DNA of 64,000 nt from Bryoerythrophyllum caledonicum (lineage: Eukaryota > Streptophyta > Bryopsida > Pottiales > Pottiaceae). Each line of letters begins with the position of its first letter. The first letter of the stretch is position 1. The DNA is taken from NCBI GenBank assembly GCA_963971425.1, contig OZ020524.1, positions 4,311,773 to 4,375,772 of the forward strand. The letters are read 5' to 3'. Made by a program: the position numbers and the translations under genes. Below, one piece after another: positions 5,492 to 42,180 of this stretch. The notes beneath the pieces are model-generated. The model was not told the DNA's origin. It saw nothing but the letters and a program-made list of their open reading frames with translations, and did no database searches.

Positions 5492-6706
5492 GATTTCTCT
5501 TCATCACCAGCTCATCACAATCTAGAGCTCGGGAAGGGATTGCTCACAGTCAAGAGCTCAGAAAAACTCAAGCTCTTCAGGAATTGCTCACAATCTAGTA
5601 CACAGAAATCCTCACACTCTTCAGGAATTCCTCACAACTGGAACTAAAAATTTTGTTTCTGTTTTGCAACACATGCTTGAGGACTGAGTTCGAGAGAGTG
5701 ATCACATTGGCTGCAGCCATATCCTACAGAAATGTCATCTTCATGAAGATGACGCATCCGCCTCTTTTTCTCAGCATGTCCACTTTTTTGGATTTTGGGA
5801 TGGTTGTTAGATTTGGAGCAGGTTTTTGAAGGGTTTTCTTTTTTTAATCTTGCTTAATCTATGACTCTTGATGAATTGTTACGTGGGTGGATGAGGAGAT
5901 TTAGGGCTTTGGGGCGGCAAAGAGGTGGTTGACATGCCTTTTGAGGTGAAGAGACAAAGTGGAAGCGGTGTCGATGGGGTTTTATGATTTCGGGGTCTGG
6001 GTTGTGTGATTCTGGGCCAAGCCATGACGCCATTCTGTTACTCCACAGCGCTCTCTGAATTGTTGACCATTTGGTGGCACTCCCCACATCACATAGGGAA
6101 ATGTGACCAGGCTCATACTAGTGTTTGGTTGCAGAAATGTAGGTTCAGCAAATATAAGTTTCATGTGACTTCTTCGTCATCAGACTCCTGTCGGTTTTTA
6201 CTTCCTGTTGTCTCAGAGAGATAGAAGCTTCACCCAAGTGGGTGCAATCTTTGTGATAGGAACAGGTGGTATTCATGGATTCTTTCTGCAACCCTAGCCT
6301 AAACGGAGAGGACTCTGATCCCCTCGACAGACGAATGAGGCTGATCAACATGAGCATGATCCATGAGGTGAGCATGAGAATGCTATCGATCAATATTGGA
6401 AATTCTCTGTCAATCCCTTCATAACAGTGAGTACCAACCTCCAGAACAAAGTAGTGGAGGAGCGGACTTGAAAAGGGAGAAGAAAGACAAGGGACCTCCC
6501 GGAAAGAATTAGCTTTGGACGACCTACGGTACAAAACAATCATGCCCCAGATTGGTCGGGTGCATACAGCTACGAAATGAAGAGATGATAACTCAAACAG
6601 AACCCGTGATGTTTTTGTGTGCAGGACATCATGCGAACATGTCAGGTAGAGCTCACCATGAGGCTTTGATAATGAACATCTTGGCACGAGAAGGAAAAGC
6701 AGCAGC
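5492..6706. other. Intergenic region between divergent genes
   Basis: This 1.2-kb region separates the minus-strand zinc-ribbon gene from the plus-strand carrier, so it should hold both promoters and 5' leaders. Frames on both strands, including a 244-codon minus frame at 6145-6879, show no family signal and overlap the carrier start in antisense. I could not identify a clear TATA box or other element. No transposon ends were seen. Confidence 0.4.
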
Positions 6707-7729
6707 ATGAGTCGTCGTCTGGTGGAGGTGGGGAAGGACTTGACCGCAGGCACCATGGCCGGCATCGCCCAGTTGCTGGTGGGGCACCCGTTCGACACGG
6801 TGAAGGTGAAGCTGCAGGCGCAGATGAGCAACCAGGCGCCGCAGTACGCGGGGGCCTTCGACGCCGTGCGCAAGATCATGGCCAGGGAGGGTCCCAGGGG
6901 ACTCTACAGCGGCCTCAGCGCACCCCTGGCCGCCGTGGCGCTCTTCAACGCCGTCCTGTTCACGGCCAGGGGCCAGATGGAAGCTCTCCTGCTGCAACAC
7001 AACAAGAAACCATACTCCAGTCTCAGCGTCCGGCAACAGATAGTGGCCGGAGCAGGTGCCGGCGTCGCTGTCTCCTTTGTCGCATGCCCCACTGAACTCA
7101 TCAAGTGCAGACTGCAAGCACAGACATCTTCACCTCCGAACACACCTCCGAAAACACCAGAGAATGAAGTCACAACTGATAACAACCCTAACCCTAACCC
7201 TAACTTACCTGAGCAAGGTGACATCGGACTGAGTCCCTTGGCGATCACGGATGTTGAAGGCGGAGCTCCACCTGCTCACAAGTATGACGGCTCCCTGGAC
7301 GTGGCAAAGGTAATTTACCACCAGGAAGGAGGCGTCTTCGGATTCTTCAAGGGGCTGTCACCTACGTTTCTCCGGGAGGTGTTTGGAAACGCGGCCTACT
7401 TCGGGTCGTATCAAGGTACCAAGCAGTTGCTGTCCAGAGGCAGCACCGGGGAGAATCTGAGCACCGGGTCCCTGTTGGTGGCGGGCGGCGTTGCAGGTGC
7501 TATGTTCTGGCTCCTGGTCTACCCTGCCGATGTCATTAAGAGCACTATCCAGGTTGATGACTACCGGAATCCCAAGTACACCAGTACGCTTGACGCGTTC
7601 CGGAAGGTGTTCAAGGCTCAGGGCGTCAAGGGGTTTTACTGCGGCTTTGGGCCGGCTATAGCCCGGAGCGTCCTTGCAAACGCTGTCTGTTTCTTCGTCT
7701 ACGAGCTGGTCCGGAAGGCATTTAATTGA
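6707..7729 (+). CDS. BOU: Mitochondrial carrier, BOU / carnitine-acylcarnitine carrier-like
   Basis: A 340-residue intronless member of the SLC25 family of inner-membrane transporters. All three repeats carry the carrier signature: HPFDTVKVK (P at 28), CPTELIKCR (P at 128) and YPADVIKST (P at 273), each followed by a glycine-containing matrix helix. Whole-length similarity is best to Arabidopsis A BOUT DE SOUFFLE, which affects photorespiratory mitochondrial metabolism; related animal proteins carry acylcarnitine. Length is normal apart from a low-complexity linker at about 140-192, between the second and third repeats, rich in Pro, Asn and Thr. That linker contains three CCCTAA hexamers (about 7186-7203) coding for Pro-Asn repeats. 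ATG 6707 is chosen because the carrier fold starts a few residues later. The gene converges on the DUF2232 gene. Substrate is inferred, not shown. Confidence 0.88.
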   Translation: MSRRLVEVGKDLTAGTMAGIAQLLVGHPFDTVKVKLQAQMSNQAPQYAGAFDAVRKIMAREGPRGLYSGLSAPLAAVALFNAVLFTARGQMEALLLQHNKKPYSSLSVRQQIVAGAGAGVAVSFVACPTELIKCRLQAQTSSPPNTPPKTPENEVTTDNNPNPNPNLPEQGDIGLSPLAITDVEGGAPPAHKYDGSLDVAKVIYHQEGGVFGFFKGLSPTFLREVFGNAAYFGSYQGTKQLLSRGSTGENLSTGSLLVAGGVAGAMFWLLVYPADVIKSTIQVDDYRNPKYTSTLDAFRKVFKAQGVKGFYCGFGPAIARSVLANAVCFFVYELVRKAFN

Positions 7730-21892: not shown

Positions 21893-23220
21893 TCATTTGG
21901 AAGAGGAGCCAACCCCCCTACAATTTGCCATGAGCAAGTCGTCCTCCTCTTGCATGGCCGACTCCCACTTGCTCCCATCTTCCAATTTCATAGCCTCACA
22001 CATATTTAAAAGATCCTCCAATGACGCCACATTGACACGCTCTATCTCATGTTGAGGCAAAATGTAGCTCTTCCACCATTCACCGAGCGGGCGACACTCT
22101 CTTCTTGGATGCCGCGGCTCTTGTAAGTTCCCCAAGTCCTCATCGCTTGGTAAAGGTGTTGATGAAGATGCTACATCTCCTTTTTTGGCATCCAATCTCT
22201 CTTCTTTCTTGATATCTCCATCGCAATCCTTCAGCGGTAGTGGTTTGAAAGATTCGTCCACCAAGGTAGGGGTTTCACTTCTCCCACTTGGACTCATCTC
22301 CAAAACATCACCAATACTAGTAGTATCTTCAATAAATACTACATCCCAACTCTTAATGATCTTCTTCGTCTCAATGCACATGAGTCGATATGCCTTAGTG
22401 TCCTCACAATAGCTAAGAAACAAACACTTTGTGCCTTTTGCATCAAACTTACTATTTTTTGTATCCGGCACCATGGCATATACAATGCATCCAAACACAT
22501 GCATATGCGCAATGCATGGCTTGCGGCCACTCCAAGCTTCTTGCGGTGTAATGGTAACGAGAGCCCCCATTAGACATTGATTGAGAATGAAGACCGCATT
22601 GACCACCGCTTCCGCCTAAAATTCAAGTTATATGCGTTGTGCATGGATCATGTTCCTCGCCATTTTCACTATGGTACGATTTGCACACTCATCGACTCCA
22701 TTTTCTTCCGGCGTGTAAGGTGTTGATGTGTGCCTCTCAATGCCATGCTTCTTCAAGAAACTTCGAAAGCCTTTGGATATGAACTCTCCACCGTTGTCCG
22801 ACCGAAATACCTTAATCTTGTGCTCTGATTGCTTCTCCGCAAGGGCCTTCTACTCCTTGAACTTCTCAAGGCATTCCACCTTTGTATTCAAGATGTACAT
22901 CCACACCTTCCTTAAAAATTCATCAATGAAGGTTACAAATACCTTGCACAACCTATGGAAGTGGTCCTCATTGGGCCGCACACATCCATATGCACAATTT
23001 CCAAAGGCTTTGATGCACGCGTCGCTCCATCATTTGGAAATAGTGCCCTATATTATTTGCCTTACACGCACCCTTCACAAAATGACATTGATAATTCATT
23101 TTGCCAAGAGTCATGTCATTTACCATGCTTTCAAGTAAATGCACACTTTTCACGTTCAAATGACCAAGTCGACGATGCCAAAGCTCCAATGCACCGCTCT
23201 TTGTTGATGATTGTGTCAAG
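21893..23220 (-). pseudogene. Copia integrase and C-terminal linker
   Basis: The 22968-23219 frame has LWHRRLGHLNVKSVHLL, the HH part of the HHCC zinc domain. 21893-22606 has HVFGCIVYAMVP and CLFLSYCEDTKAYRL, the conserved end of the Copia integrase region, then an acidic linker with the WWKSYILPQHE segment. The core between them is degraded. Confidence 0.87.
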
Positions 23221-27000: not shown

Positions 27001-27451
27001 AAAAATTTATTTATATATATATATTTTTTTTTTCTTTTTTTTTTCTTTTTTTTTCCTTTTTTTTTTTTTTTTTTGTCTTTTTTTTTCTTTTCTCTACCAC
27101 TACTACTAATTCAAACAAGAATTAGTATCTAGAACTCAACTACTTCTAACTATCTTCTAAACTCAACTAATTAATTTAGATTTAAGTGGTGATTTTAGAC
27201 CTACGTCCCGGGATATCTCCTGGGATTCTTTTGAAATTGTTTCCCAGAACTTAAATTAGTGATTTTAAGACCCGGTTTTATCACCACTATAAACCTAATT
27301 AACTACTTAAGCATTTCCCTGTTTTCTCTATTCGCTATCTAATCTAATTTCACACAATACTAACTACTTTTCTAATTAACTAATACTAAAAATCCCCTTT
27401 TAACTAATTTTTTTGGTAGGGGCGACCAAGTGGGAGTTTTAGACTCCCACA
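24079..27451. mobile_element. Unclassified 3.37-kb insertion in Copia gag, ACCGGT-rich
   Basis: It splits gag between the codons for MQEGD and DLLNHVN. Only ATC (24076-24078 and 27452-27454) is repeated at the edges. It has no long LTR or clear inverted termini. Between 24.1 and 26.4 kb CCGGT/ACCGGT words recur more than a dozen times. At about 26530-26630 there are three 30-bp units with ACCCTAGCTCGCGCACCTC. A purine-rich block (26730-26900) is followed by a long T tract (26990-27090). The minus frame 25539-25910 encodes a Pro/Val/Asp-rich repeat (PVDLPGDIPNPPVDLP). A box-A-like word TAGTCTAGTGG sits near the left edge. No transposase or polymerase was found. Confidence 0.6.
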
Positions 27452-27820
27452 ATCTCCCTCTTGCATCTTCATTGTGAAGAACTTGCGGCAAATGAAGAGG
27501 ATGTTGGACAAACTCCTCATTTTGTGGATGTTGCGCAAAGTCTTCCATGCTTCCACGGGTCCCTTAGAACTCTTAAGGTGGGCAAGTTGGTTGTCCACCA
27601 AGTAAGGGCCAATGATGGACATGGCCTTCTTTGCACACCGATTATCGTCCTTCTTCACCTTTGGATCATTGTCTTCGGACGGAAGCTCCTCGGAGTCATC
27701 CGCAATCTCCCAAAGGTCCATGAATGCCAATACTATCTCCATCTTGAACTTCCAAAGATTGAAGTTCTCACTTTTGAACTTGTCAATGACTCTAGCACTC
27801 TCGCCATCATACATTGTCAT
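27452..27820 (-). pseudogene. Copia gag N-terminal part
   Basis: ATG at 27820 opens a frame with FNLWKFKMEIVL and EAWKTLRNIHKMRS, then FFTMKMQEGD, which is the conserved Copia capsid region. It is cut by the insertion and continues at 24078. The frame reads on into the insertion and stops at 27404. Confidence 0.88.
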
Positions 27821-28089
27821 ATTTGCACACTAACACTAACTCCTAACTTCCAATGTGCACAAGTGCTTCTCAATCACTCAAATGAGCCCTTTTTAGGCTC
27901 CAATGTGCACTTATGCAACTACAACATTTAAATTTCAGAACTACCTATACGGGTTATGTATTAGGTGTATCCGCAACGTGCACACACATCTAAAACACTC
28001 AAACTTCAGGGCTATCCATACAAATTGTGTACTATATGTTTGGGTGAAGTCCAAAAGTGCAAATGTAAACACTTACAAAGTTGACACCC

Positions 28090-28371: not shown

Positions 28372-28511
28372 ATTGAGATTCGAAAGAATTAAAAAAATGA
28401 TTGCATAAGCAAATGAAACACACACGGTATAACAAACAATGCTTGGAGTGAGATATTGCCTTCTTTCAAAGGCCTTTTCATATAATACTTCTACTTAGCG
28501 ACATCTTATGC
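28370..28511 (-). repeat. Copia right LTR, inner fragment
   Basis: Matches the first part of 19960-20442 (for example ACAATGCTTGGAGTGAGATA). It stops at ACATCTTATGC, where the LINE was inserted; the rest of the LTR is at 41868-42180. Confidence 0.88.
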
Positions 28512-28746
28512 AAAAAAAAAAAAAAAAAAAACGCCGGTTTCCAATAGGAGGCCGACGTGAATAAAGTGTCTGTTCGTTCCACTACTAAGACCATGCCCAC
28601 TGGACAAGGAATTAGTAAGCTGGAACTACTCCCCTCTCTCGAGGGTAGACACTATGTAACAAGTAGCCTAAGAACCACAGACCAAGTAACTAGCCAACTA
28701 ACTAACCACAAACCAGGCAAGCAATAAAAACCTCAAAGCCAACATT
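28512..28746 (-). other. LINE 3' untranslated region, hairpin and oligo(T) tail
   Basis: The sense end reads GTCGGCCTCC-TATT-GGAAACCGGC (eight of ten pairs) and then 20 T. The preceding 110 bases, including GAGGGGAGTAGTTC, match the 3' half of the SINE at 43622-43980. The hairpin is probably the recognition signal for the LINE reverse transcriptase, by analogy with stringent-type LINE/SINE pairs. Confidence 0.75.
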
Positions 28747-31700
28747 TCATGCTAGATCAGGGTGGGGGGAGAATTTAGGGGGGGTCTTGTGCATCGGGGA
28801 GGGCTTGATTGTTTTCGATTTTGCGTTTATGTAGTAGAATGGAATGGCATATTGAGTAGCAATGGTGTTAATGTTTTTAAAGGAGGTGTTAATTGTTTCA
28901 ATGGGAATTTTGAAGGTATCCTCAAGAATTTTCATAGATGGGATAAAGGTAGTGGCACGAGCGCCGGCCGTGATTACAATGAGGGGGTCTACATTCCATC
29001 CAAGGGCGATGATGTCGTCCATAAGGGGTTGATATTTATCTATTTTGTTTTGAATTGTTTCTGGGGAAAATCTATCGTTGCAATATGTGAATTCGATGAA
29101 TTGAATGGTGTAGTTTTGGTTACTGTGATCAGGTGGTGGGTCATTGTATGGTAAGCCTTTAACACATAGAATGTCCGGTTTGAGTCTAGCATTGCAATGA
29201 CATCTTTGAGTCTCACATGAGCATGGGAGTAGCCAAGGGGAGACTGTATTTTCTTGTGGCTTGTTATTAAAGGTGCCGGCGTTCATTAGTATAAAACATC
29301 TCGATTTATTGTAGGAGGTGATTAGTTTTCGGACTTCCCATACCGCTTTGTTATGTCTTTTAACAATAAGAGAGTATATGTGGTGATTTTGGCATTTGAG
29401 TAGGACATGAAGCCATGTGTCGGGGTCCATTGAGGGGCATATGGGGCATGTTATGGATGGGAATCTTTCCGTTCCAAAGAAGAGTTGTTTACGGGCGTTT
29501 CCCATGTATTGAGCGGTACGGAATTTGATAAGGCATGTGATTTGTGAGTCGGTGATGATGGGGTTTTTCCAAAAGTTAGTGGAGAGTTCATTGTCTATGT
29601 CTTTGTTGTTAGTCCACTTTTCTATGTTAGGGAAGTTGTCTGAGATTATATCAAGGTTGTTGTAGAGGTCTTGTTTTTTGAGATATTTGCTCAAAAATCT
29701 GATTGGGCCTTTGTCGGGGGTATCTTCTTTGGAAGGCCAATCTTCTTTTTGGAAATAGTATGGAGTGGCATGGGCATGTTCGTGCGGGTCTGTGGCATTT
29801 TTGTGTGTTTTTTCTCGGCCTTCTTTTGCTAATTTATCCGCTTGTTCGTTGCCATCAATGTTGGCATGGGCTCTCACTTTGTGGAGGGTTGTGATTTGTG
29901 TACGGTTTTGTAACATTTGGACCATTGACGTTAATATGGTTTGGTCGGGGTGGCTATTGTGAAGGGTAGGGTGTGTTATTTGGGTGTTTAGTAGGTAGAG
30001 TGCATTTATACAATCGGTGAATATATGTGCGGGTTCATCATTGTATTTTGTTGTGATGATTTGTAGTGTTTTGTGAATGGCCATGAGTTCTACTCTGAGG
30101 ATGTTTTGTAATCCGTGGAGTCTTTTGGCTAGTTTGATTTCCTTGGTAGAATTATATATGCCGTAGTCAGCTTTTTCTCTGCGCCAAGATCCCGGGCTTA
30201 TTTGTTCTGGTGGTTTAAAGGAGCCGTCGGTGTAATAACTATGTGCGGGGTTAAATTTTAGTGTGGTATGAGTTGGGTAGTTTGGGAGGTGGGGAAGTAT
30301 GCCGGAGTAATTTGATGTGTTGTTGACATAGTTTAGTTTTGACCAGTTTTTGCTTCTATTTACGGGGGTTTGTATAGGTTTTGGTAGGGCCGATTTTGTG
30401 TATAGTCGGTGTATGTTTAAATTTTCTGTTATGGAGGTGAGTTCAGCAAGTTGTTCTAGTGAGCCAAGGGTTTGATTTTGATGATGGACGCATAGTATTT
30501 GTAATGTAGATGGCTCGATTCGGGGTTTTTTTAGCTCGGGTGGAATGGTAGGTTCTTTATATGGTATTGTATCTGCCTCGAATAGTGCGATGATATGAGA
30601 ATCTGGAAATGGGTTTGAATGTTGGTTGTTGTTTTGGTACCACTTGTTGTTCGGTGTAATGATGATTGTATTTGTGTTATTTGGGTCATGTTTGGCGGCA
30701 AGTCTAGCCCAATGTATGGCTTGTTCCATGTCTTTCTCGTTGTTGGAGTGAGCTATACCATTACCTTTCCATTTATAGTCAAAGGCCTTGCCTAGGGATC
30801 CAAATATTTTGTCTCTTTCAAAGGGTGAGTGGAATTTTTTTAGTTTGGTGGAGCATGTGACCGGGGAAGAAAAGTATGATTGTTCGATGTTAAAGGATGA
30901 AATCAGTGAGTCTAAAATGGGAGTAGGTATTGTGTATTGCGCATTTTTTAGGGGGTCAGTTTTTGGTATTCGGTACTTATATCTTTGGTATAGCCATATT
31001 ATTTCGGTTTCAAAGGGTTGGGTCTTTGGTTCAATGTTTACAGGAATTTGTAATTGTGTTTTATATTGATTCCATAGCCATTGGAGTCGAGTAACGGGGA
31101 TGGTGTGTAAATGTCGTCCATTTTCTTCATATAGATGTGCTTGGTTGTTATCTATTTGAATTGTATTTGAGGATGTAAGGATATTGTTTTCGGGATTACA
31201 TTCTGTTATGTAGATGTTTAAGAGTGGAATAATTATGGGTGGTGTTACGGATCTTGAGTCTGAGAATTGTTCTTGGGGGTGGTGGGCTAGGATGATTTCT
31301 GAGTATGTTTTATTTTGAATTATTTGGTAGTATTGTTTTAATTTTTTGGTATTATGTGTGGAGGTATTGGTGTCGTATCGTGGAAAGAGGTCTCTTTGGG
31401 GAAGCCATTTATTGTATGTATTATCGTTATGTCTCCATTGGCATAAATATTTTGTGTAGGTATTTTGTATGTTATTTGTGTCTATGTGTTGGATATGTTT
31501 ATGGTGTATGATGTTATTAATGGGATATGTAGTAGGGTTTTTGGGGATGTATGTTGGGGGACGGGGAGGGTATGTATGTGGGGGGTTAGGGGGGTTTATT
31601 GGTGTGGGAATATTTCTTGGGGTGATGAATGAGTCTTTAAGTGTATGAGAATATGGGTGTATGTTACAAGGGGTATGACATGTAGTGGGGCAGTTGGGGT

Positions 31701-34700
31701 GGCAAAATAGTTGTTTAGCAACTTTTAGGGCACTTTTTAATAGTTTGGATGGGGTGAAATGATATGTTTTGAAGTCTTCATTGTTCATGATGTGTGTGCC
31801 GTTGGGTAAAGTAATTTGGGTTAATTCAAAAATATTTTTTGAGAGGAGTTTTTGTAGAAGCTTTTGGGAGAGTTGGGCATTGAGTGTGTTGTGTTTTTGT
31901 GTTTCTTGGCGCCATAGTATTTCTAGTGATGTAGGATTAATGAGGAAGTTTGGGAGCGTACTTTTAAGGTGGGCTTTAGCAATATGTTTTAATAAGAAGA
32001 ATGTTCGTGTTATTGGTGATCTTATGCAGTCACTTTTTTTAATTCTGGGTATGTTTTCGGCGCCACCGTATTGGGCAAGTACATATTGAGTTAATCCATT
32101 GTATATTTTTCCAAGTCTGCCTTTGTCGTTTAACGCATTTTGTAGTTGTTCGCCTATACATCTGAGGTATGCGTTTTTGAGGGAGAAAGCTTCAAGTCCA
32201 AATAGGTTATGTGGGAGTTGGGTTATTGCGTTTGACATACATTTCGGTAGTCCACATATGGTTTTTTGTATGGCTATTATTTTTTGATCAAGTTTTTTGA
32301 TAGCTGGCATAGAGTATGGTACACCGTAGAAACTGTATGCCACGCCTGGGCGTAGTACGGTATCAACCATTTTTATTTTTTGTTTCATAGTGGCCGAGCA
32401 AGTTGTTAGTTCTTTGCACTGTTTGATGAGTTTCGTGGTTGTAGCGTGAATTTGGATTTTCCATTTTAGTGAGGGGACAAGATTTATACCTAAGTATATG
32501 TATGGTTCATTTTGGTGTAGTGTGGGGATTGGTTGATTGCGGTAATTGATGTTAGAGGCTTGTATTAGGGCTTTGAAAGTGGTAGGGTTTAATTTGGATT
32601 TGTTTGGGCATCCGGTAGCGGCACATTTTGGGACACCTACGTCCATACCGGTCCATTTACAATATCTATCAATTTTGTTGAGTTGAATTTGTATATGTTT
32701 GATTTTGTTAGTTATGACGGCGAGGTCATCTGCGTATGCGGCAGAGTTTATTGTGACTTGTGATGTGCCAAACGTGTATCCGCTGTTGCCTCGTTCTAAC
32801 CACCTGAGTAGTGGTTCTAAGAATATAATGAATAAATATGGGCTAAGGGTGTCTCCTTGTATGGTTCATCTTTGTATAGGTATGGGTTTTGTTTTCCCAA
32901 AGTGTTCACCAATATAATGAGTGGATGACTGGGAGTAAATGTTTCCTACAAGTGTAGTGGCATCTTTTGGGTAGCCGAGGTCCATCATTATTGCTAGTAG
33001 TCGGGCATGGTCTATTGAGCCAAAGATGTTTTTAAAATCAACGTATAATATGTATATATCTTGGTTAGTGAATTTTGCGTCTTCTAGTGCAGCTATTATA
33101 GTTTGTATTTGTCGAGCGGTGCTTCTCTCTGCTCTAAATCCTTCTTGGCTATCATGTAGGATTTTGAATTTTTCGCCGTATGAGGATAGTATAGAGGTGA
33201 GTGTACTAGTGAAGAATTTGTATATTGTGTTAGCTAGTGCAATTGGTCTATGATTGGGTAGTATAGATGGGTCACCTTTTTTGTATAGTAAGATTGTTGC
33301 ACTTGATTTCCATGAGGTCGGTATTTGCTTTTGTTTATAGCAGTGAGAGAAGAATAGGAATAGTAACTTATGAAATCTAGGAGGCATGTTTTTGAGTATT
33401 GAATTTGGTATGCGGTCTGGGCCTGGGGCTTTGTTGTTACCAAGATTTTGAAGGCATGTGTCATATATGGCTCTATTGAGGTATTGATGTAGTGGGATTT
33501 CTGGTTCACCTCTTTTCTCCAGGGTATATCCATCAAGGTCATGCCATGGATATTGGCGTATTGCACATGTACATTTGTTTTGATGTAGTAGTTGGTAGTT
33601 ACATGTTGATACTGTTGGTCTATTGGTTTTTGTTTGTTGGTTGAATATTTCATTCGCAATGTCTTCGGGGCTAGTTAGAATATTATTAGATTGATCTGTG
33701 ATACAGTCAAGTGGTGGGGATTCTAGATTCTTAAAGACTCTTCTATTAATTTTCTTAGGGCTGATGTCATATAATTGTCTATATTTTGAGATGGCTTTTT
33801 TAATGTTATCTTTGGTGTGTTTTGAAGTTATTTTTCTGGCTTGTATGTTGGCATTTTTTGCAATTAGTGCGATATCTTTTATCCATGTATCATGGGATGT
33901 ATCCGGGGGCGGTGGGGTGGGAATTTGGGTATTTTGTAGAGTTAGTAGTTCATTACATATGGGGTGGTTACGCCATTGGGAATTATTTTTTACAAGTCTT
34001 ATAGTTTTTCGTATAACATGGTATGTAGTAAGATGTTGTTTCCAAGTTTTAGAGAGTTTGCGTGGTAGATATCCTCCTTGTTGAGATATTCTGTTTGTCA
34101 ATTGGGGTATTGGGTGGGCTCTACAAGTTTGTTCTAGTGTGTTGGAGATTTCTTTGATGAGTATATCTAAGGTTTCACATGCTTCTTGCCATTGTACTTG
34201 TGATAGTTGATTGTTGTTTTCAAGAGTATTTGTGAGGGAGTCTATTAGCATGGATTGTTCTTCAAAGAATTTTGTGTTGAATTTTTCTAAGTTACTTTTT
34301 GGAATGGGGTTGAGTATGCGTATAGTGTCGTTGTTTAGAGTTGTGGGAGTTCTATTAATTAAGGTGTTATTTGGTATGTGTAAATGTATAGGGGAGTGGT
34401 CCGAGTTGAGAATAATATCTTTTTTTGTTGTGGAGGTGTATTGTGTATTATTGTTGGTATTTATATAAAATCCATCTATTAGACTCCTGTCGCTATAGTT
34501 GTAGCCGCCTTGCCTAGAGAATTGCGTATCGGTTTTTATGTATGTGAAGTTTAAGTTTTCTATGAATTGACGCCATTGATAATCGATGTTTTGGGGAGGG
34601 GTACTATGGTTTCCGTTTTGGCGTCCTATTAATGCTATATCTCTATTAAAGTCTCCGCATAGTATATATGTGTGGTTGGGGTTGTTACTTATTTGAGATG

Positions 34701-35762
34701 TCATAGTGTTTTGTATGTCGTTAATAAGTCTAGTGTCTTCGGGGTGAGATGGCATATACATGTGGAGAACTAGCCATGGTTGTAGTGGATAATTAGTGAT
34801 TTTAATAATTTGAAGGTAAGGGGATATGTGCATTGGGGTGGGGATTTTTTTGATGTTGCCCGGGAAGGCATATTTTTTATGTATTAGTGTAAGGAGACCA
34901 CCACGCCCCGGTGTGTATGGTCTCCGTTGTTGGATACATCTTGTAAGCGCATGTGTATTGTTGAAAATGAGTTTATAGTCTTGAAATAATTTTTGTATAT
35001 ACTTTGTGGATTTCGTGGCGGATAATTTTGTTTCTTGTATAACTATAATGGCTAGCGGTGTGTTTGTATGTGTGGCCAAAGTTTGTAGGCTAGGGAGGGC
35101 GGTGTTTAGAGAGGAGGCATTCCATGTGAGTATATATGCACTTTCTTGATTTGGATTATTGTTTTGGTTTTGTGGGCGTAGGTAAGGGGGTGGGGGGGGT
35201 GGGTGGGTATATTTTGGTATTTGGTCAAGGCATTTTAGTGTTTCAATAATTAGATTGTTGGGAAGGTATGGAAATTTTTGTTTTATTGTTTCTTGTGTTG
35301 GTAGTATATGATGATTATGTATGAAGTCGTATAGTTCTTTATGTATTGATGTTTTATGGTTTATAATATTTTGGTTATTTTCAATGAATGATACATAAGG
35401 GTGTGTGGTGTTAATGTGTCTTTCAGGAGGGTTTTGTAGGTTAGCAAGGGAGTCTAGTAGTGCATTAGTCCATTGGGTTATGTTTGGACTTTGTTGATTT
35501 AATAGGAGGTTGCATTCGTCTATGTGTGGGTGGATTGTAGTTACTATGGCGTATAGAATATGTGGTGAGGGGTATTCGTTTTTTTGTTGTATATATTGGA
35601 TAATGTGTGGATGTGTGTTGGCGTATGATAGGTGTAGTGTATGTGTGGATTCTAGTATAGGTGCAAATGATCGAGCAATATGTCTATACTCCGGTTGTAA
35701 TTTTATTGTATTTGGTATAAAATATCTTTTGGCATTTTTTTTGTGTTGAATTGGATGTCTTT
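28747..35762 (-). pseudogene. LINE ORF2: APE, RT, RNase H, CCHC, RLE
   Basis: One frame of about 2,340 codons, broken only by TGA at 32866-32868. APE endonuclease: WNASSLN, IQETKL, CGDFN and SDHSP are all present (about 35120-34390). Reverse transcriptase: APGPDRIPNSI, YVDFKN, QGDTLSP and AYADDLAV (about 33440-32720). A thumb region follows. About 31.0-30.6 kb holds a conserved-looking block (FGSLGKAFDYKWKG, then MEQAIHWARLAA) of unknown role. RNase H: YTDGS, VELMAIH, FTDCINAL and HANIDGNEQAD (30.24-29.83 kb). A CCHC knuckle CPICPSMDPDTWLHVLLKC (about 29.42 kb) precedes an RLE-like PD-(D/E)xK core, KPDILCVKG then IEFTYC, and the KYQPLMDDIIALGW helix. Separated from its 2A by a one-base frameshift at about 35765. 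Confidence 0.87.
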
Positions 35763-35920
35763 TTAGTACTTTGGCATAGGTCCTGGGTTGGTTTCTATGT
35801 CTCCGCCAAGTATTAGTAGTAGTTTATAGTGTGGTGGTTTGTTATTATGTTTAATAGTTGCGTGTTTTTTTGTTTTTCTAGTGTATTTTTTTGTTTTGTT
35901 TATTTTATCCTTGTATTGAA
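34745..35920 (-). repeat. Second copy of the 2A-endonuclease segment
   Basis: Matches 35930-37060 at an offset of about 1182 bp, with roughly 80-85 percent identity by eye. This copy continues into the complete endonuclease and polymerase; the other one is cut off. Confidence 0.85.
35778..35831 (-). other. 2A-like ribosome-skipping motif, copy B
   Basis: HYKLLLILGGDIETNPGP. It has the D-x-E-x-N-P-G-P core and a hydrophobic lead, as known from 2A sequences, which release the chain between Gly and Pro. It lies directly upstream of the full endonuclease-polymerase frame, which now needs a one-base shift. Confidence 0.85.
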
Positions 35921-36959
35921 GGGGGTGGGAAGGCATATACATGTGGAAGATTAACCATGGTTGTAGTGGTTGATTAGTGATTTTGATTATTTGGAGGTAT
36001 GGAGATATGTGCATTGGGGTAGGGATTTTGTTGATGTTACCTGAAAAAGCGTATTTTTTGTGTATTAATGTACGGAGGCTACCGCGGCCCAGTGTGTATG
36101 GTCTACCTTGTTGGATGCATCTTGTTAGTGCATGTGTGTTATTAAAAATAAGTTTGTAGTCTTGGAATATGGTTTGTATGTATTTTGTGGATTTTGTGGC
36201 CGATATTCTAGTTTCTTGTATAGCTATGATGGCCGGTGGTGTGCCTGTATGTGTGACCAAAGCTTGTAAGCTAGGGAGAGCGGTGTTTAGAGATGAGGCA
36301 TTCCATGTAACTATGTTTGTATTTTCATTGTTTGAACTGATATTTTGGTTCTGTGGGGGCAAGTGGGAGGGTGGAGGGGGTGGGTGGGTATATTCTGGTA
36401 TAGTGTTAAAACATTTTATTGATTCATTAATTAATTTATTAGGAAGGTAAGGAAATTTTTGTTTTATTTCATTGTTTGAAGGCGGTATAGTTTGGCTATG
36501 TAAAAAATTGTATAGTTCTTTGTGTATTGATTTTTCTTGGTTTATGATATGTAGGTTTTCTTCCAGAAATTTTGTATAAGGGTGTGGGGTGTGAATATGT
36601 CTTTCGGGTGGATTTGCTAAGTTTGATAAGGTGCATAATAGTGTGTTAGTCCATGTAATTATATTTGGATTTTGTAGGTTTAACATGCGGTTACATTTGT
36701 TTATGTTTGGGTGGGTGGTAATTACTAGGGCATATAGAATATGTGTTAATGGGTGCGTATTTTTTTGTTGAATGTATTGGGCAATGTTTGGGTGTGTTGT
36801 GTTGTGTAGTTGATGTAATATATGTGTGGTTTTTAGAAGGGGTGCGAATGTATGAGCAATGTGTTTGTATTCTGGTTGTAGTGTTATGGTATTTGGTATA
36901 AAGTATATTTCGGCGTTTTTCTTGTGTGCTATGGGGTGTCTTTTTAGTACGTTAGGTAT

Positions 36960-37013
36960 GGGTCCTGGGTTGGTTTCTATATCTCCACTTAGTAGTATTA
37001 ATATTTTATAGTG
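36960..37013 (-). other. 2A-like ribosome-skipping motif, copy A
   Basis: HYKILILLSGDIETNPGP. Same core as copy B with two or three changes in the lead. If active it would separate a 161-residue N-terminal peptide from the downstream product. Confidence 0.87.
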
Positions 37014-38035
37014 TAGAGGTTTGGTTTGTTTTTGTTTTATTGGTTGTTGTATATATTTTAGGTATTTTCCAGTTTTTGTGTTTTTAGTGTTTTTGTTTAT
37101 CCAGGTATTTGTGGGTGTTATGGCGGTTTTGGGTGTGACAGGAGGATGGATGTATTGATTCATTGTAATTGTAGGTGTTTTTATGGTTTGGCTTTTATTT
37201 CTGGTTTTTGGTGATTTTATATGTGTGTATGTTTTAGTTTCTTGAATTAGTTGCCATATGTGTGTTGTAGGTGTATTTCTTGGTATTGGTATGAGTGTAG
37301 TATGAGTTGTGATGAGGCTATATTTTTTGGTTGATTTTGTGTCGTATGCGTTTCTGTTAGTGTTTTTGTGGTCTGTGTGCAACAAGATGTATATGCACGT
37401 GGGGTGGCCAATGGTTTTGGTAGATGTCTTTGTTTGTGGGGGCATGGCTATTGTGTGGTGTATATATGTATAAGGTATGGTATTTTTATTCTTACATGGT
37501 AGTTTTTTGTGAGTATATATTGTGTGTATTTCATATGTGTTTTCCAAATAGATATTCATACCGTAATGGTATATGTAGTGACAACATTTATATGTATGGA
37601 GGATTAAACCCCAATTCCAAAATAGTCTTTCACCATGTGGTCTCCAAGACTTGTATCTAGATGTAGTTGTCTTGTAGTAATGGTCTAGAGTATGTCTATC
37701 GTAGGAGGTAGCTAGGGAGGTGAGTATAGAGACTGAAGTGAGGCTAGGGTGAGCTACTATAGAGAGAGGGAGAGAGTGGGATACCACTATTGAGAGCAAG
37801 CCAAAGGGGGAGTGATGTGCATCTATCTGGAGGGGTGTGTAGAGTGCTATTGTAGTGGGCAGGAGAGCACCTCCTAGCAAATTGTAACAAAGGAGAGAGA
37901 ACACATTAGAGGAGACCACAATTACCATGTATATAGAAGTATGTAAAACTAATAGAAAGAGGTGGGAGAAAGGAGTAATAACCTCGTTCACCTTTCTGAC
38001 ATTAGATTGGTGAGATCTTCGGTTGTGGTCCTTGG

Positions 38036-39679
38036 TCAATCCACGTTTGAGTGGTCCTCTAGGGCTGGGATAGTTGATGGTCTTGTTCCTGTGATTTGTT
38101 GCATAGCCATCAATGCAGAGGCTATTAACTGCTCAACATTTGAGAGTTTTGCCTGTAGCTCACTGGTGCGGTTGTCTGTGTAGGCCCTTGTATCTTTGAT
38201 GATGTCCTCTCGTAGGATAGAGAGCTCTTGGCGTAGTCTCTTGTTTCCTGCATCCATGATGGAGGTCATCTCGGACCTTGTGATGCCTGAGGGTGTGGGG
38301 GTGACTTGTAGGGAGGCTACTGTGTTTACAAGTGCCTTGTTGATGTCGTTGAAGCCCCACTTCTCTAGTAGGTCGGTGGAAGGTGGGTCATCACCGTCAA
38401 GGCTACGGCGGTGGGGAGAGATTTCTACTTGATGTCGCCCTATCGTGAAGGTCTTGTGTAGGTATTGACGGTAGATGATGGGATTAGGGAATTGCACATT
38501 GGCACTACCATTGTGTTTGCCCCTCTGTTGCCTGTGGAACCATAGGGAGATTACGTTTTTGGCTTCAAAGATTTGGTGAATGGCTTCCGTGGTTTCAACC
38601 ACGCTCATAAGGATGGGAAGCTGGGATATGGTGACCGTGAGTGCATCTTTCTTGGCTCTGTCGATAGGTGATAATGTTCTGGAGCTGCTAGCACGAGCTG
38701 GTATCATCTCGTGATGTGTGGTAATCTGGTGGAGCTCGAATTTCTTGGCTTGTTGTGGGGTTGGGGCGACTATAAACGCATGGGATTCCTCTTGTACCTT
38801 CTGGACATCTGTGACCTCGAATTCTAAGTTTCTCGAGAAACTATTTGCCACTATATCTTGGAAGAGAGTATGAGCGGCCATACCTTGTAGAGTTTCACTT
38901 TTGATTCTTACTGATATGTTTTTTCGTGCCACTGCATGGAAGGTCTTACATACTTTCCCCAAGGAGGCTTGGCTTGTGATGTCCAGATGTAGGATGAAGT
39001 AGCGGGTGCCTCTAAGGAGGGCAATGGCATCTACCTCTGGTCTTAGTAAGTGAAGTTTAATGGTGCCTGACCAGACCCCCTTTTGCCCCTCTTTTTTTAC
39101 TCCTTTGCATAGAACGGCAATGGGATCCATTAGGTTGGTTCCTAATGGTATTTTCATGTGCTCTAGTCTAGCTATGGCAAGTCTCTTCACATCATCGTGG
39201 TACATGGGGTGTGGTGGCAATTCAAAGTGAATTGCCACATGAAAGTCATAGGAAAGTCCAGTGGTCGGGTGTGTGGGAATGTCAAAGGGGACATGCGTGA
39301 GGTTGTAGTGTTGGCCTTCTATGTTGTCGTTGCGCACCGGAGAATATAGGACTTGTGGTATCGTTGGGTAGGCCACAGCGGCACCAAGTGCCTCCTCTGC
39401 TTCATCTTTGGGTACTCCTCGTGTAATCATGTCTCTAACACTTTCTCCACTAAACAGGGGCTCTTGTCCTACGTCCTTGGCAATCTTTTCCATGGTGGAG
39501 AAGCCCAGCCAGAATTTGAATGTAGAGAGGTCAGGGATGGTGACTTGGTTGGGGGTGGGATAGTTGCCTTTTGCTTTCTTGGATGGGGTTGGGCTTTCTC
39601 CTGTCACTATGGTTGATCCCCTGTTTACTATGTTATTCGTGACTTCTGGGTGTGAGTTTTCGGTTTCCATAGCGTCCAT
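38036..39679 (-). CDS. LINE ORF1 protein (RRM-like and coiled coil)
   Basis: 547 residues from ATG 39679; the frame is open further up to 39826 but only with a GTG start. The N-terminal half has no family I recognise. Near residues 380-460 a beta-alpha-beta-beta-alpha-beta pattern (LTVTISQLP, HQIFEA, VISLWFHRQQRG, GSANVQFPNP, RHQVEISPH) fits an RNA-recognition motif. The last 90 residues are a heptad-like helix (RLRQELSILREDIIKDT, then ELQAKLSNVEQLIASAL). RRM plus coiled coil is the usual make-up of L1-type ORF1, an RNA-binding trimer that packages element RNA; here the coiled coil follows the RRM rather than preceding it. No stop or shift is seen, which suggests recent activity. Confidence 0.8.
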   Translation of the reverse strand: MDAMETENSHPEVTNNIVNRGSTIVTGESPTPSKKAKGNYPTPNQVTIPDLSTFKFWLGFSTMEKIAKDVGQEPLFSGESVRDMITRGVPKDEAEEALGAAVAYPTIPQVLYSPVRNDNIEGQHYNLTHVPFDIPTHPTTGLSYDFHVAIHFELPPHPMYHDDVKRLAIARLEHMKIPLGTNLMDPIAVLCKGVKKEGQKGVWSGTIKLHLLRPEVDAIALLRGTRYFILHLDITSQASLGKVCKTFHAVARKNISVRIKSETLQGMAAHTLFQDIVANSFSRNLEFEVTDVQKVQEESHAFIVAPTPQQAKKFELHQITTHHEMIPARASSSRTLSPIDRAKKDALTVTISQLPILMSVVETTEAIHQIFEAKNVISLWFHRQQRGKHNGSANVQFPNPIIYRQYLHKTFTIGRHQVEISPHRRSLDGDDPPSTDLLEKWGFNDINKALVNTVASLQVTPTPSGITRSEMTSIMDAGNKRLRQELSILREDIIKDTRAYTDNRTSELQAKLSNVEQLIASALMAMQQITGTRPSTIPALEDHSNVD

Positions 39680-39826
39680 TTTTGCTGTGGCTGGTGTTAC
39701 TTGCCTTTGGGGTCTAACTAAGGGTTGGTTAGTGGAGGGTGCTGGTCTAGAGGGCTGATGGACTAAAAGGTCGTTAGTTATGGGTGGGGCACTAGGTTGA
39801 AGGGTAGCAAAGGCACAGGGGGTCAC

Positions 39827-41867
39827 TAGATCGTGGGAGGTCGCAAAGTCCTGTGAGGTCGACGTGCCGTGGGGGGTCGTAAGGTGGTTACTGGTTAGAG
39901 GTAGGTTGTGAACTCGTGCTGGTTTTCTAGGCTGGGGAAGGGTCGCTATTACACATAAGGGTTCTTCTGGTTGGAGTCTCTGTACGGGTTTTGTTTAGTG
40001 CGAGGGTTCCTGGGCAGGTTTCGGGTACTGCCGGGGTTCCTGCTCAGCGTAGGCTCTTGTTCTATGCTTGTTGTCTCTGTGTTCGGTGGTGTGAGCGTGT
40101 GTGGCGGCGCTTGTGGCGTTCCCCTGGTTGAAGGTTTCCAGGCCTCCGAGAGAGCTCGCGGCTGTGTGTACTGTCCTCTCCGGATTGGGGGTCGTTGGGC
40201 CTTCGTGGGTGTACGCAGCGAGCCTTACTCCTTGTTGCGGGTTGGGGTTTGCTAGGGTTGCTTTGTGAGCACTATCGTCAGTCTTGACTCCTCTCTCCGA
40301 GTTGGAGGTGCTTGCAGCTCTGTGTGCTCTTAGGTTCCTCGTTTGGTGGGCGTCCAGGGTTGAGGGCTTCTTTACTTTGTGTAAGTCTAGGTTCAGGGGT
40401 TGCTGCACTTTGTGTGTGTCTGGGTCGTCAATGTTTGAGGCTAGGAATCTGTAGGATCCTCTTGGGTTTCTGTAGGTTGCTGTAGGTTGCTGGGTTTTTT
40501 GAGGTCTTGTGTCTATACTAATGTCTATGGTTGTCCGCAGGTTTCTGGTGTGAGTACGTGTGTGGGCTACCTGTTGCGCATCGCTCTTATTGATCCCATG
40601 TCCTCTCTTGGGTTTAGCGCTTACCTGGTATGCTTCTTTGTTGTGGTAGTTGCGCTTACTGTGGCGACTATTGATCTCCCGTTCTCCACTTTTATTGATC
40701 TCCCGCTCTCCTTGGCTGCCGATCTCTTTCTCCTTCTTCTCGTTTGTTGCTCTTCCACTCCTCTTCTTCTACAGCCGTCTCCAATTGTCGTCTTTGTGGT
40801 TGCAGGATCTTAGGGTTGGTGTGGGAGGGCTGTCGGGGTTGGGGTGTGTGTTTCTTTGTCTGTTGATTTTCTTCTCCTTCGGCTCGTCTGCTGATTTCTC
40901 TCTTCCTGCCACCTGTAGTCGTCTTGATTTGTCGTCCGTATAGTCTGTTAGTCTTCTTCCGTGCTTCACCTGCAGATGTCGTTGATGGCCTTCTTTGTGT
41001 ATGCAGGGACGATTGGGTAATGACTTGGAGGTGCAGAGCTTGAGGCGGGGGGTCTAGGGGTGTCGGTGGAGGGTGCTCCAGCTTGTGGGGGGGAGTTTAG
41101 GGTTAGTGTGGGGGGGCTGCCGGGGCTAGGATGTATGGTTCGGTGCTTGTGTACCTGTGTAGGTGTAGGTTTGAGCTCCCGGGTGTTGCGTCTGTTCCGA
41201 ATGGTCCTGTAAAAATTTCTCCAGCGCTTCCGCGCACAGGGTGGATTATTGAAAAAATTTAATCTACGTCTACCTCTACTGTGTGTGCGCCAAATATGTG
41301 TGTTGTGTAGAATAGATGATGTGATGTGAGTGTGAGGTGTAGTGAGATGGTAAGAAGCTGTAGATGTAGATGCAAGAGTTTGATGGACAAGAAGGAGGTT
41401 AGGAATAGCCTGAGTCTGTGTGTAGGTGCTGCCGAGCAGCACGCTTGTGTCGTATGTTGAAATCTTGTTGCTGCAGTCTTGGGTCGAGGAGTTTGGTGAC
41501 TTTGTGTGGGCGGTAGATCTGTTGCAGTGTACTCCAGATCTGGGCAACAGATCGCAGAAAACCCTAATGTGCAGCCGATTTCAGCTCCCAACACTCGTGT
41601 CCCCGCCTCAGAATAAGCACGCGTTGATCTTGCACCTAGGGTTGTTCAGTGATCTAAAACCTCAGACCGTATCTAAGCCCATTCCAACACTCTTCTGCCT
41701 TCTACCCACCCACACAGCAGACGCAGATCTGGGTTTACAGGGGCTTCGCGGTGAAGCCAGCAACACTCACCGGCTACAAACTCAGTTTCTGCGTCTGGGT
41801 CACAGAGCTCCTCTCACCAAGAAAAACGGAGCGTTTCAGCAGTCCATTCTCGCTCTAAACTATCTAC
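39827..41867 (-). other. LINE 5' leader
   Basis: About 2 kb from the element's 5' end to ORF1, more GC-rich than ORF2. Minus frames at 39995-40408 (137 codons) and 40966-41547 (193 codons) are Thr/Pro/His-rich and unrecognised. They could be upstream frames or ORF1 extensions. The internal promoter expected for a LINE should be here, but I cannot point to it. Confidence 0.6.
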
Positions 41868-42180
41868 ACATCTTATGCATCTTACAAGTGGCTTCTCAAG
41901 CATCTTACAAGTGCGTTCTAAAATATATTGCAAATGGCTTCTCAAGCAACTTGCAAGTCCCTCTTTGCCGACTCATGGGCCACATGGCCACTCACTTGTC
42001 CTTGCTTATTTCATGCAAGACATGTGGATTGGTCCTACCTCTTTGACCTCAGGTCATGCATGTATCTCTCAAGTTCCTTTCACCTCTACCCATTTTCTCC
42101 GCATTTACTTGCCTATCTAAATCTACCTCAATAACTATATGCAATGCCTTAATAACTATGAGCAACTCTTAACTCCAACA
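41868..42180 (-). repeat. Copia right LTR, outer fragment
   Basis: Starts with the second ACATCTTATGC of the LINE target duplication and runs to the sense 5' end TGTTGGAGTTAAGAG at 42180. Matches 20090-20442. Confidence 0.88.

Follow-up and report, generated by a model that had tools for sequence, protein, structure and literature searches.

In a 64,000-nucleotide stretch of the Bryoerythrophyllum caledonicum genome (437 Mb; contig OZ020524.1, here C12, positions 4311773-4375772), hereafter the window, we analyzed a non-long terminal repeat (non-LTR) retrotransposon of two open reading frames (ORF1 and ORF2) that is encoded on the minus strand (Table 1). The initial annotation, made from the sequence alone, had described the interval as one minus-strand long interspersed nuclear element (LINE) of the Dualen type, which combines an apurinic/apyrimidinic endonuclease (APE) with a restriction-like endonuclease (RLE). 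Both ends are flanked by a perfect 12-bp direct repeat, which reads TGCATAAGATGT on the minus strand, and we therefore regard positions 28513-41867 as a single insertion, in agreement with that description and with exact ends. Related copies in the genome are referred to as c6 (L027/L028), c10 (L029 with L025/L026) and c11b (L030 with L023/L024), and the divergent member as L033.

ORF2 occupies two minus-strand frames in the window, 35823-32866 (985 amino acids, aa) and 32865-28747 (1372 aa), which lie in the same register with only a TGA codon between them. Because of this single in-frame stop and a frameshift after the second StopGo/2A motif, the window copy is not active. The motifs reported initially for the APE (TWNASS, IQETK, GDFNRD, NSDHS) were recovered in the minus-strand ORFs together with a Pfam match, and those of the reverse transcriptase (RT; AYADD) and the RNase H (YTDGS) were likewise confirmed by motif and by Pfam. 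In relatives, Exo_endo_phos was detected in c6 (L027, E = 1.1e-6), and was not reported by Pfam for the L033 piece containing the APE region (764 aa, 0 Pfam families), though this region aligns to the window ORF2. RVT_1 was detected in both window halves flanking the stop (E = 1.5e-9 and 1.1e-10), in L027 (2.9e-28) and in L033 (5.6e-28), and RNase_H in c6 (3.6e-12) and L033 (4.8e-12). Independent copies share a single register for the APE, RT, PCIF1-like domain, RNase H, zinc knuckle and RLE-like block. Between the window copy and c6, the ratio of nonsynonymous to synonymous substitution rates (dN/dS) was 0.065 for the APE, 0.075 for the RNase H, 0.11 for the RLE block and 0.22 for the PCIF1-like domain; both endonuclease-type blocks are thus under purifying selection between these two copies. 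Against L033, synonymous sites were saturated for several domains.

The C-terminal part of ORF2 carries, in this order, C-x2-C-x9-H-x4-C, RHNK, KPD, IEFT and NKIDKY...GW. As references for this part we used the endonuclease regions of three R2 proteins whose structures are known. The hhalign alignment of the family with the R2 RLE ran collinearly through the zinc knuckle, RHNK, KPD and K-x3-Y (P = 0.005; control region P = 0.7), and an alignment that included the L033 row gave P = 0.0096 over the same region. A profile of the R2 RLEs scored 6.1-11.2 bits on four family members, the best of 4,000 shuffles reaching 9.2 bits and two of the 4,000 equalling or exceeding the c6 score of 6.5. In Smith-Waterman alignments against three members, 0, 1 and 0 of 500 shuffles scored as high as R2Bm, and 36, 12 and 1 as high as 9nl2. 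The R2 motif pattern (CCHC - RHN - KPD - acidic - K-x3-Y) was present in all three R2s and all four family members and in none of 100,000 shuffles, and a looser version in 14 of 100,000; these counts are not P-values, because the pattern was drawn up with both R2 and the family in view. Among 215 open stretches of at least 150 aa in the fetched DNA, 12 fit the looser pattern and 11 of them the full one, the twelfth being a decayed fragment in L011. Further, the proportion of nonsynonymous differences (pN) against L033 was 0.12 for the block, beside 0.118 for the RT and 0.106 for the RNase H, which places it among the better conserved parts of ORF2. In the best part of an AlphaFold model (residues 221-290, block means 44-66), a strand-strand-helix-strand arrangement surrounds KPD, IEFT and K-x3-Y, as would be expected for a PD-(D/E)xK core. 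For the RLE that had been annotated in 29450-28747, the R2-type motif order and moderate profile statistics speak in favor. One profile test was mostly negative, and neither Pfam nor a Protein Data Bank (PDB) sequence search gave a match, an outcome that the initial annotation had named as a refutation. By its motifs and profiles, the C-terminal block is likely, though not proven, to be an RLE.

Searched against the PDB, the RT core matched R2 best (5e-32 for 9nl2, then 2e-29 and 3e-29), followed by human L1 (6.6e-21) and, more weakly, R2Bm (9.9e-16). In an RT tree of nine rows, comprising R2, human L1, two L1s of the host and four rows of the family, the four family rows formed one clade (100/100) and human L1 with the two host L1s another (99/97). 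Since the tree puts the family RT apart from the L1 clade, the element does not fall inside plant L1, consistent with the initial annotation. We found no relatives of the family outside the host genome in IMG/VR, phage records and GTDB genome contigs, which hold few eukaryotes.

Three features are missing from the initial annotation, although all motifs it named are present: the StopGo/2A motifs upstream of ORF2 and, described below, the PCIF1-like domain and the length of the target-site duplication (TSD). A scan for (D/G/C/N)(V/I)ExNP(G/R)P over the window and 45 loci gave 14 matches in 12 of the 46 sequences, every one in the element family (DIETNPGP 13 times, DIEINPGP once). The upstream context of the 14 matches is L-rich and ends in GG, SG or CG (LLILGG, LILLSG, LIILCG). 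A published L-rich, LLLLSG-like StopGo class ends in (A/S/C)G before the core D, and one of its members was active in vitro (PMC12846837). The 2A cores of the family fit StopGo with a permissive upstream context, and ribosome skipping is predicted from the motif. While L033 has one 2A, the window copy and c6 carry an upstream duplicate of 2A, N-terminal domain and partial APE block, the first 2A of which is canonical in the window and degenerate in c6; the older copy c2up has two degenerate 2As. An assembly error is an unlikely source of this tandem block, as c6 and c10 have the same arrangement with a degenerate first 2A.

Further upstream, the window ORF1 is 45% identical to the ORF1 of L027 (E = 2e-151) and 35% to that of L033 (E = 1.6e-95), and because of this homology the upstream half belongs to the element. 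A Pfam scan of ORF1 gave no family above its cut-off, despite the 35-45% identity between subfamilies. The stretch between ORF1 and 2A (L027 3871-4804; L033 6021-8312) is an open low-complexity frame, His/Thr/Tyr-rich and without an early ATG in c6, and with a long Asn run in L033.

The domain between RT and RNase H matched PCIF1_WW in all three copies scanned with Pfam (41.0, 41.1 and 35.2 bits, cut-off 31.1 bits), with E = 2e-10 in the window, 1.9e-10 in c6 (L028) and 1.2e-8 in L033. It aligned with residues 286-371 of the PCIF1 chain 6irx (E = 0.034), including the F-x-SP...C and FGS-x-G region; with the divergent L033 piece or a four-member profile as query, PCIF1 was absent from the PDB matches up to E = 10. 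NPPF, which we take to be the catalytic motif of PCIF1, was not seen in eight family sequences (window, L028, L032, L033, L042-L045), where the corresponding place reads AHPHN, AHPHT or AHSNN. We infer that the domain may be a methyltransferase fold kept in altered form, which binds cap or RNA. Our literature search, of partial coverage, returned no report of a PCIF1-like domain in a retrotransposon replicase. Compared with PCIF1/CAPAM, the F-x-SP...C and FGS-x-G region is shared, and the family domain differs by the replaced NPPF and by its fusion to a LINE replicase.

Before the PCIF1-like domain, a chromodomain assignment is suggestive, with E-values of 0.04 and 0.21, both below the cut-off. 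The L028 counterpart of the window stretch forms beta-beta-beta-helix in a low-confidence model, and L028 570-1877 as a whole (corresponding to window 30229-31536) was modeled as two such units, possibly chromo- or SH3-like (mean predicted local distance difference test score, pLDDT, 35.8, too low for a fold search).

In 13 elements we looked for a direct repeat next to the 3' junction. Seven have one, of 12 bp in six (window, c6, c10, c11b, c2, c9) and of 13 bp in c7inv, and all seven start with T directly after a purine (flank purine|T). In c2, c6 and c11b the leading T or TC may belong to the tail, in which case the TSDs are 11, 10 and 11 bp. No direct repeat was found in c7, c14a, c14b, c4, c2up and c10inv; the 5' ends of c14a, c14b and c4 possibly lie outside the fetched stretch. 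A single match is no proof of a TSD, because random downstream 12-mers recurred within 6 kb in 64 of 2000 trials; the agreement in length across copies is notable. This near-constant 12-bp TSD is absent from the initial annotation. Target sites differ from copy to copy, and extra bases stand between TSD and 5' end in the full-length copies c6 (15), c11b (23) and c10 (43).

The full-length copies c6, c10 and c11b have about 13.96 kb in common at 99.6% identity, which bears out the recent activity proposed initially. Three of the 11 main copies (c2, c6, c7) cover ORF2 residues 13-2349 in an uninterrupted alignment free of stops, and further copies in the same stretches are partial or contain stops. 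A 2-kb DNA probe gave at least 40 scored places (3594 first-look candidates), and a C-terminal protein probe at least 125 (10,023 candidates). For the PCIF1-like domain, 150 of 2614 first-look candidates were scored, all 150 above the cut-off; 42 of these gave an identical score (E = 4.0e-11, 50.6 bits). Because 33 of the 42 also share the same open frame of 3087 aa, a very recent burst of one subfamily is suggested. We conclude that the family was recently mobile and that its copy in the window is non-functional. That the host is a land plant, which had been deduced from the DNA alone, is corroborated by the RuBisCO large subunit (contigs C590, C821 and C894) and by 31 NAC-domain matches in about 18 genes. 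A NAC complement this small suggests a non-seed plant.

Two of the young full-length copies, c10 and c11b, are inserted antisense in older copies of the same family. The c10 insertion lies about 50 bp downstream of the 2A codons of its host copy (host positions ~6727-6738), and the 3' end of the older copy c2up (on C2), also antisense, lies no more than about 20 bp from that host site. These nested insertions could reflect self-targeting or mere abundance. Elsewhere in the window, a single-exon mitochondrial carrier gene occupies 6662-7726 on the plus strand (355-aa frame; Mito_carr, 5.8e-67), and remains of Copia-type LTR retrotransposons lie on the minus strand at 27407-27829 (Retrotran_gag_2, 5.6e-16) and 21896-22615 (SH3_retrovirus, 8.8e-27).

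Table 1. Features of the retrotransposon and its flanks, in window positions.
Feature	Position	Strand	Evidence or remark
TSD, 3' side, perfect 12-bp direct repeat	28501..28512	.	
Whole element, 13.36-kb non-LTR retrotransposon, full-length	28513..41867	-	Flanking 12-bp TSD; homologous copies
3' tail	28513..28530	-	T run in window; (TTC)n in other copies printed
3'-terminal hairpin	28531..28558	-	Fold -14.9 kcal/mol (window), -24.2 in c6, each on last 60 nt
CCHC zinc knuckle and likely restriction-like endonuclease block	28900..29448	-	Lower end approximate; KPD ~29173-29181
RNase H	29815..30237	-	Pfam RNase_H 1.4e-11
PCIF1-like domain, relative of cap-adenosine methyltransferase, between RT and RNase H	30763..31038	-	Pfam PCIF1_WW 2e-10
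Chromodomain-like stretch, weak	31387..31473	-	Pfam Chromo E 0.04, below cut-off
Reverse transcriptase	32245..33453	-	tblastn: R2 1.6e-31, human L1 6e-22; Pfam RVT_1
In-frame TGA breaking ORF2	32866..32868	-	No stop here in other aligned copies
APE-type endonuclease	34387..35130	-	Pfam Exo_endo_phos 6.6e-7; Exo_endo_phos_2 2.4e-5, below cut-off
Second StopGo/2A core DIETNPGP, context LLILGG	35778..35801	-	Pattern scan; frameshift directly after in window copy
Upstream partial duplicate: 2A, N-terminal domain, half APE block	35922..37050	-	79% to copy positions matched by the main block as well
First StopGo/2A core DIETNPGP, context LILLSG	36960..36983	-	Printed translation and pattern scan
ORF1, 652-aa open frame, conserved part ~38087-39598	38036..39994	-	Homology to ORF1 of other copies
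TSD, 5' side, same 12-bp repeat	41868..41879	.	

Taken at the level of sequence, we propose with a probability of roughly 0.8 that the window element, full-length but no longer active, belongs to a large family of Dualen-type dual-endonuclease LINEs in a land plant. The StopGo/2A and the PCIF1-like domain would be new in such an architecture, and this novelty is provisional. Several results weigh against the proposal. The RLE block is recognized neither by Pfam nor by PDB sequence search, the hhalign probability of its alignment is only 7.1%, and its AlphaFold model is poor (mean pLDDT 37.7, too low for a fold search). With Smith-Waterman alignment, 268, 189 and 3 of 500 shuffles reached the R2Tg score, which is ordinary for two of the three members, and the family profile was significant only on the R2Bm fragment (score reached by 1 of 2000 shuffles, against 159 and 467 with the other two R2s). 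Additionally, the RT tree covers R2, L1 and the family itself, with no RandI/Dualen, RTE, I or CR1 among its rows, and its joining of the family with R2, the nearer neighbor, rests on long branches. Most family 2As also have GG where the published L-rich class has (A/S/C)G, a small difference.

We consider it rather unlikely that the element is an ordinary RandI/Dualen family of a non-seed plant, already held in Repbase and with nothing new in its architecture. Dualen elements are routinely annotated in green algae and cryptophytes, and Repbase entries lie outside our comparison; set against this, the Dualen literature, in the passages covered, makes no mention of a land-plant Dualen, of 2A or of a PCIF1 domain.

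The missing Pfam and PDB matches and the profile test that was weak for two of three R2s would also fit a LINE that cuts with its APE only, in which the C-terminal block combines a zinc knuckle with what is left of an ancestral RLE, and the KPD block serves to bind RNA or DNA. We doubt this explanation, as all four members retain the R2 order of KPD, the IEFT acidic residue and K-x3-Y, and the block is as well conserved as described above (pN of 0.12 against L033, dN/dS of 0.11 between window and c6).

That the RT scores best against R2 could point instead to an independent fusion, in which either an R2-like RLE element acquired an APE or an I-group element acquired an RLE, without descent from the algal Dualen. 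We know of neither a PCIF1-like domain nor a 2A in Dualen, and the Dualen literature, in the parts covered, mentions neither. Nothing that we tested opposes such a fusion directly. We nevertheless hold it to be improbable, because Dualen has been reported from several green algae (PMC8226300) and parsimony then favors a single dual-endonuclease clade in green plants.

A chance mosaic, in which an APE/RNase H LINE lies beside or nested in an R2-like element, can practically be dismissed: nesting within the family does occur (c10, c11b) and a 2A-APE block is duplicated in the window, but independent copies have the domains in the same register and a single 12-bp TSD encloses the element, so that the TSD and the ORF2 layout shared by c2, c6, c7, c10, L033 and the window rule out a chimera or nested pair.

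If the element is a Dualen-type dual-endonuclease LINE, its RNA would be translated such that StopGo releases the leader and the ribosome makes the replicase as a separate chain, and the ORF1 protein would probably coat the RNA. One endonuclease would nick the target at the purine|T flank, and the 3' end at the nick would prime reverse transcription from the tail (target-primed reverse transcription). A second cut, 12 bp away, could be made by the same or, more interestingly, the other endonuclease. More speculatively, the two nucleases may act as a ruler, with APE and RLE each cutting one strand 12 bp apart and so setting the near-constant TSD, while the altered PCIF1-like domain would read the cap region of its own RNA and keep the enzyme on full-length capped templates, and StopGo would split the replicase from the leader. 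If this tentative idea were true, the family would represent an intermediate between RLE-type and APE-type LINEs that is still alive, maintained for its function and as more than a relic. LINEs presumably passed from restriction-like to APE endonucleases, with Dualen as an intermediate (PMC4640811). With thousands of first-look candidate places, a dual-endonuclease LINE of recent activity would make the question of why two endonucleases are kept testable in a multicellular plant. Further, a natural StopGo in a plant element is of interest because the mechanism functions in plants, yet no natural use by plant viruses was found (PMC12846837).

The combination of APE and restriction-like endonuclease in one LINE is the hallmark given for Dualen/RandI (PMC3636483, PMC4640811), which has been reported from green algae and cryptophytes (PMC3747384, PMC8226300, PMC4640811, PMC3636483, PMC12747079, PMC5753468) and is mentioned as well in PMC4438587, PMC4455052 and PMC9714946. 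Within this literature, covered in part and with Repbase outside it, we found no mention of a land-plant Dualen, a 2A or a PCIF1 domain. RandI elements end in 3' repeats of (ATT)n or (CTATTT)n (PMC3747384). The family described here resembles Dualen/RandI in its APE, likely RLE, RT, RNase H and non-A 3' repeats, here (TTC)n, and differs in its land-plant host, its length of about 14 kb, the StopGo/2A before ORF2 and the PCIF1-like domain between RT and RNase H. The original 2005 description of Dualen reportedly included a cysteine protease. Such a protease is absent from the definitions of Dualen consulted in PMC3636483 and PMC4640811, and in three family members Pfam matched no peptidase family in ORF1 or ORF2, although a divergent one could escape.

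With R2 the family shares the best PDB match to its RT and the CCHC - RHN - KPD - acidic - K-x3-Y block. R2 has an RLE only, without APE, RNase H or 2A, and is 28S-specific, whereas the family has an APE and varied target sites. The plant L1 elements of the zf-RVT type, which are present in this genome, also have ORF1 and ORF2, APE and RT, and target-primed insertion, but the family RT forms a separate clade, and zf-RVT was not matched in Pfam scans of three family members. RTE elements lack RNase H and RLE, and the family differs from them by its RNase H. As for 2A, a 2013 paper concerns, by its title, 2A in APE-type LINEs of multicellular organisms, and earlier plant cases of 2A-bearing LINEs are possible. 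Trypanosomes and various other species have been reported to carry 2A-bearing LINEs (PMC4981915). The core D(V/I)ExNPGP is common to those elements and to the family described here, in which it stands within a putative dual-endonuclease LINE.

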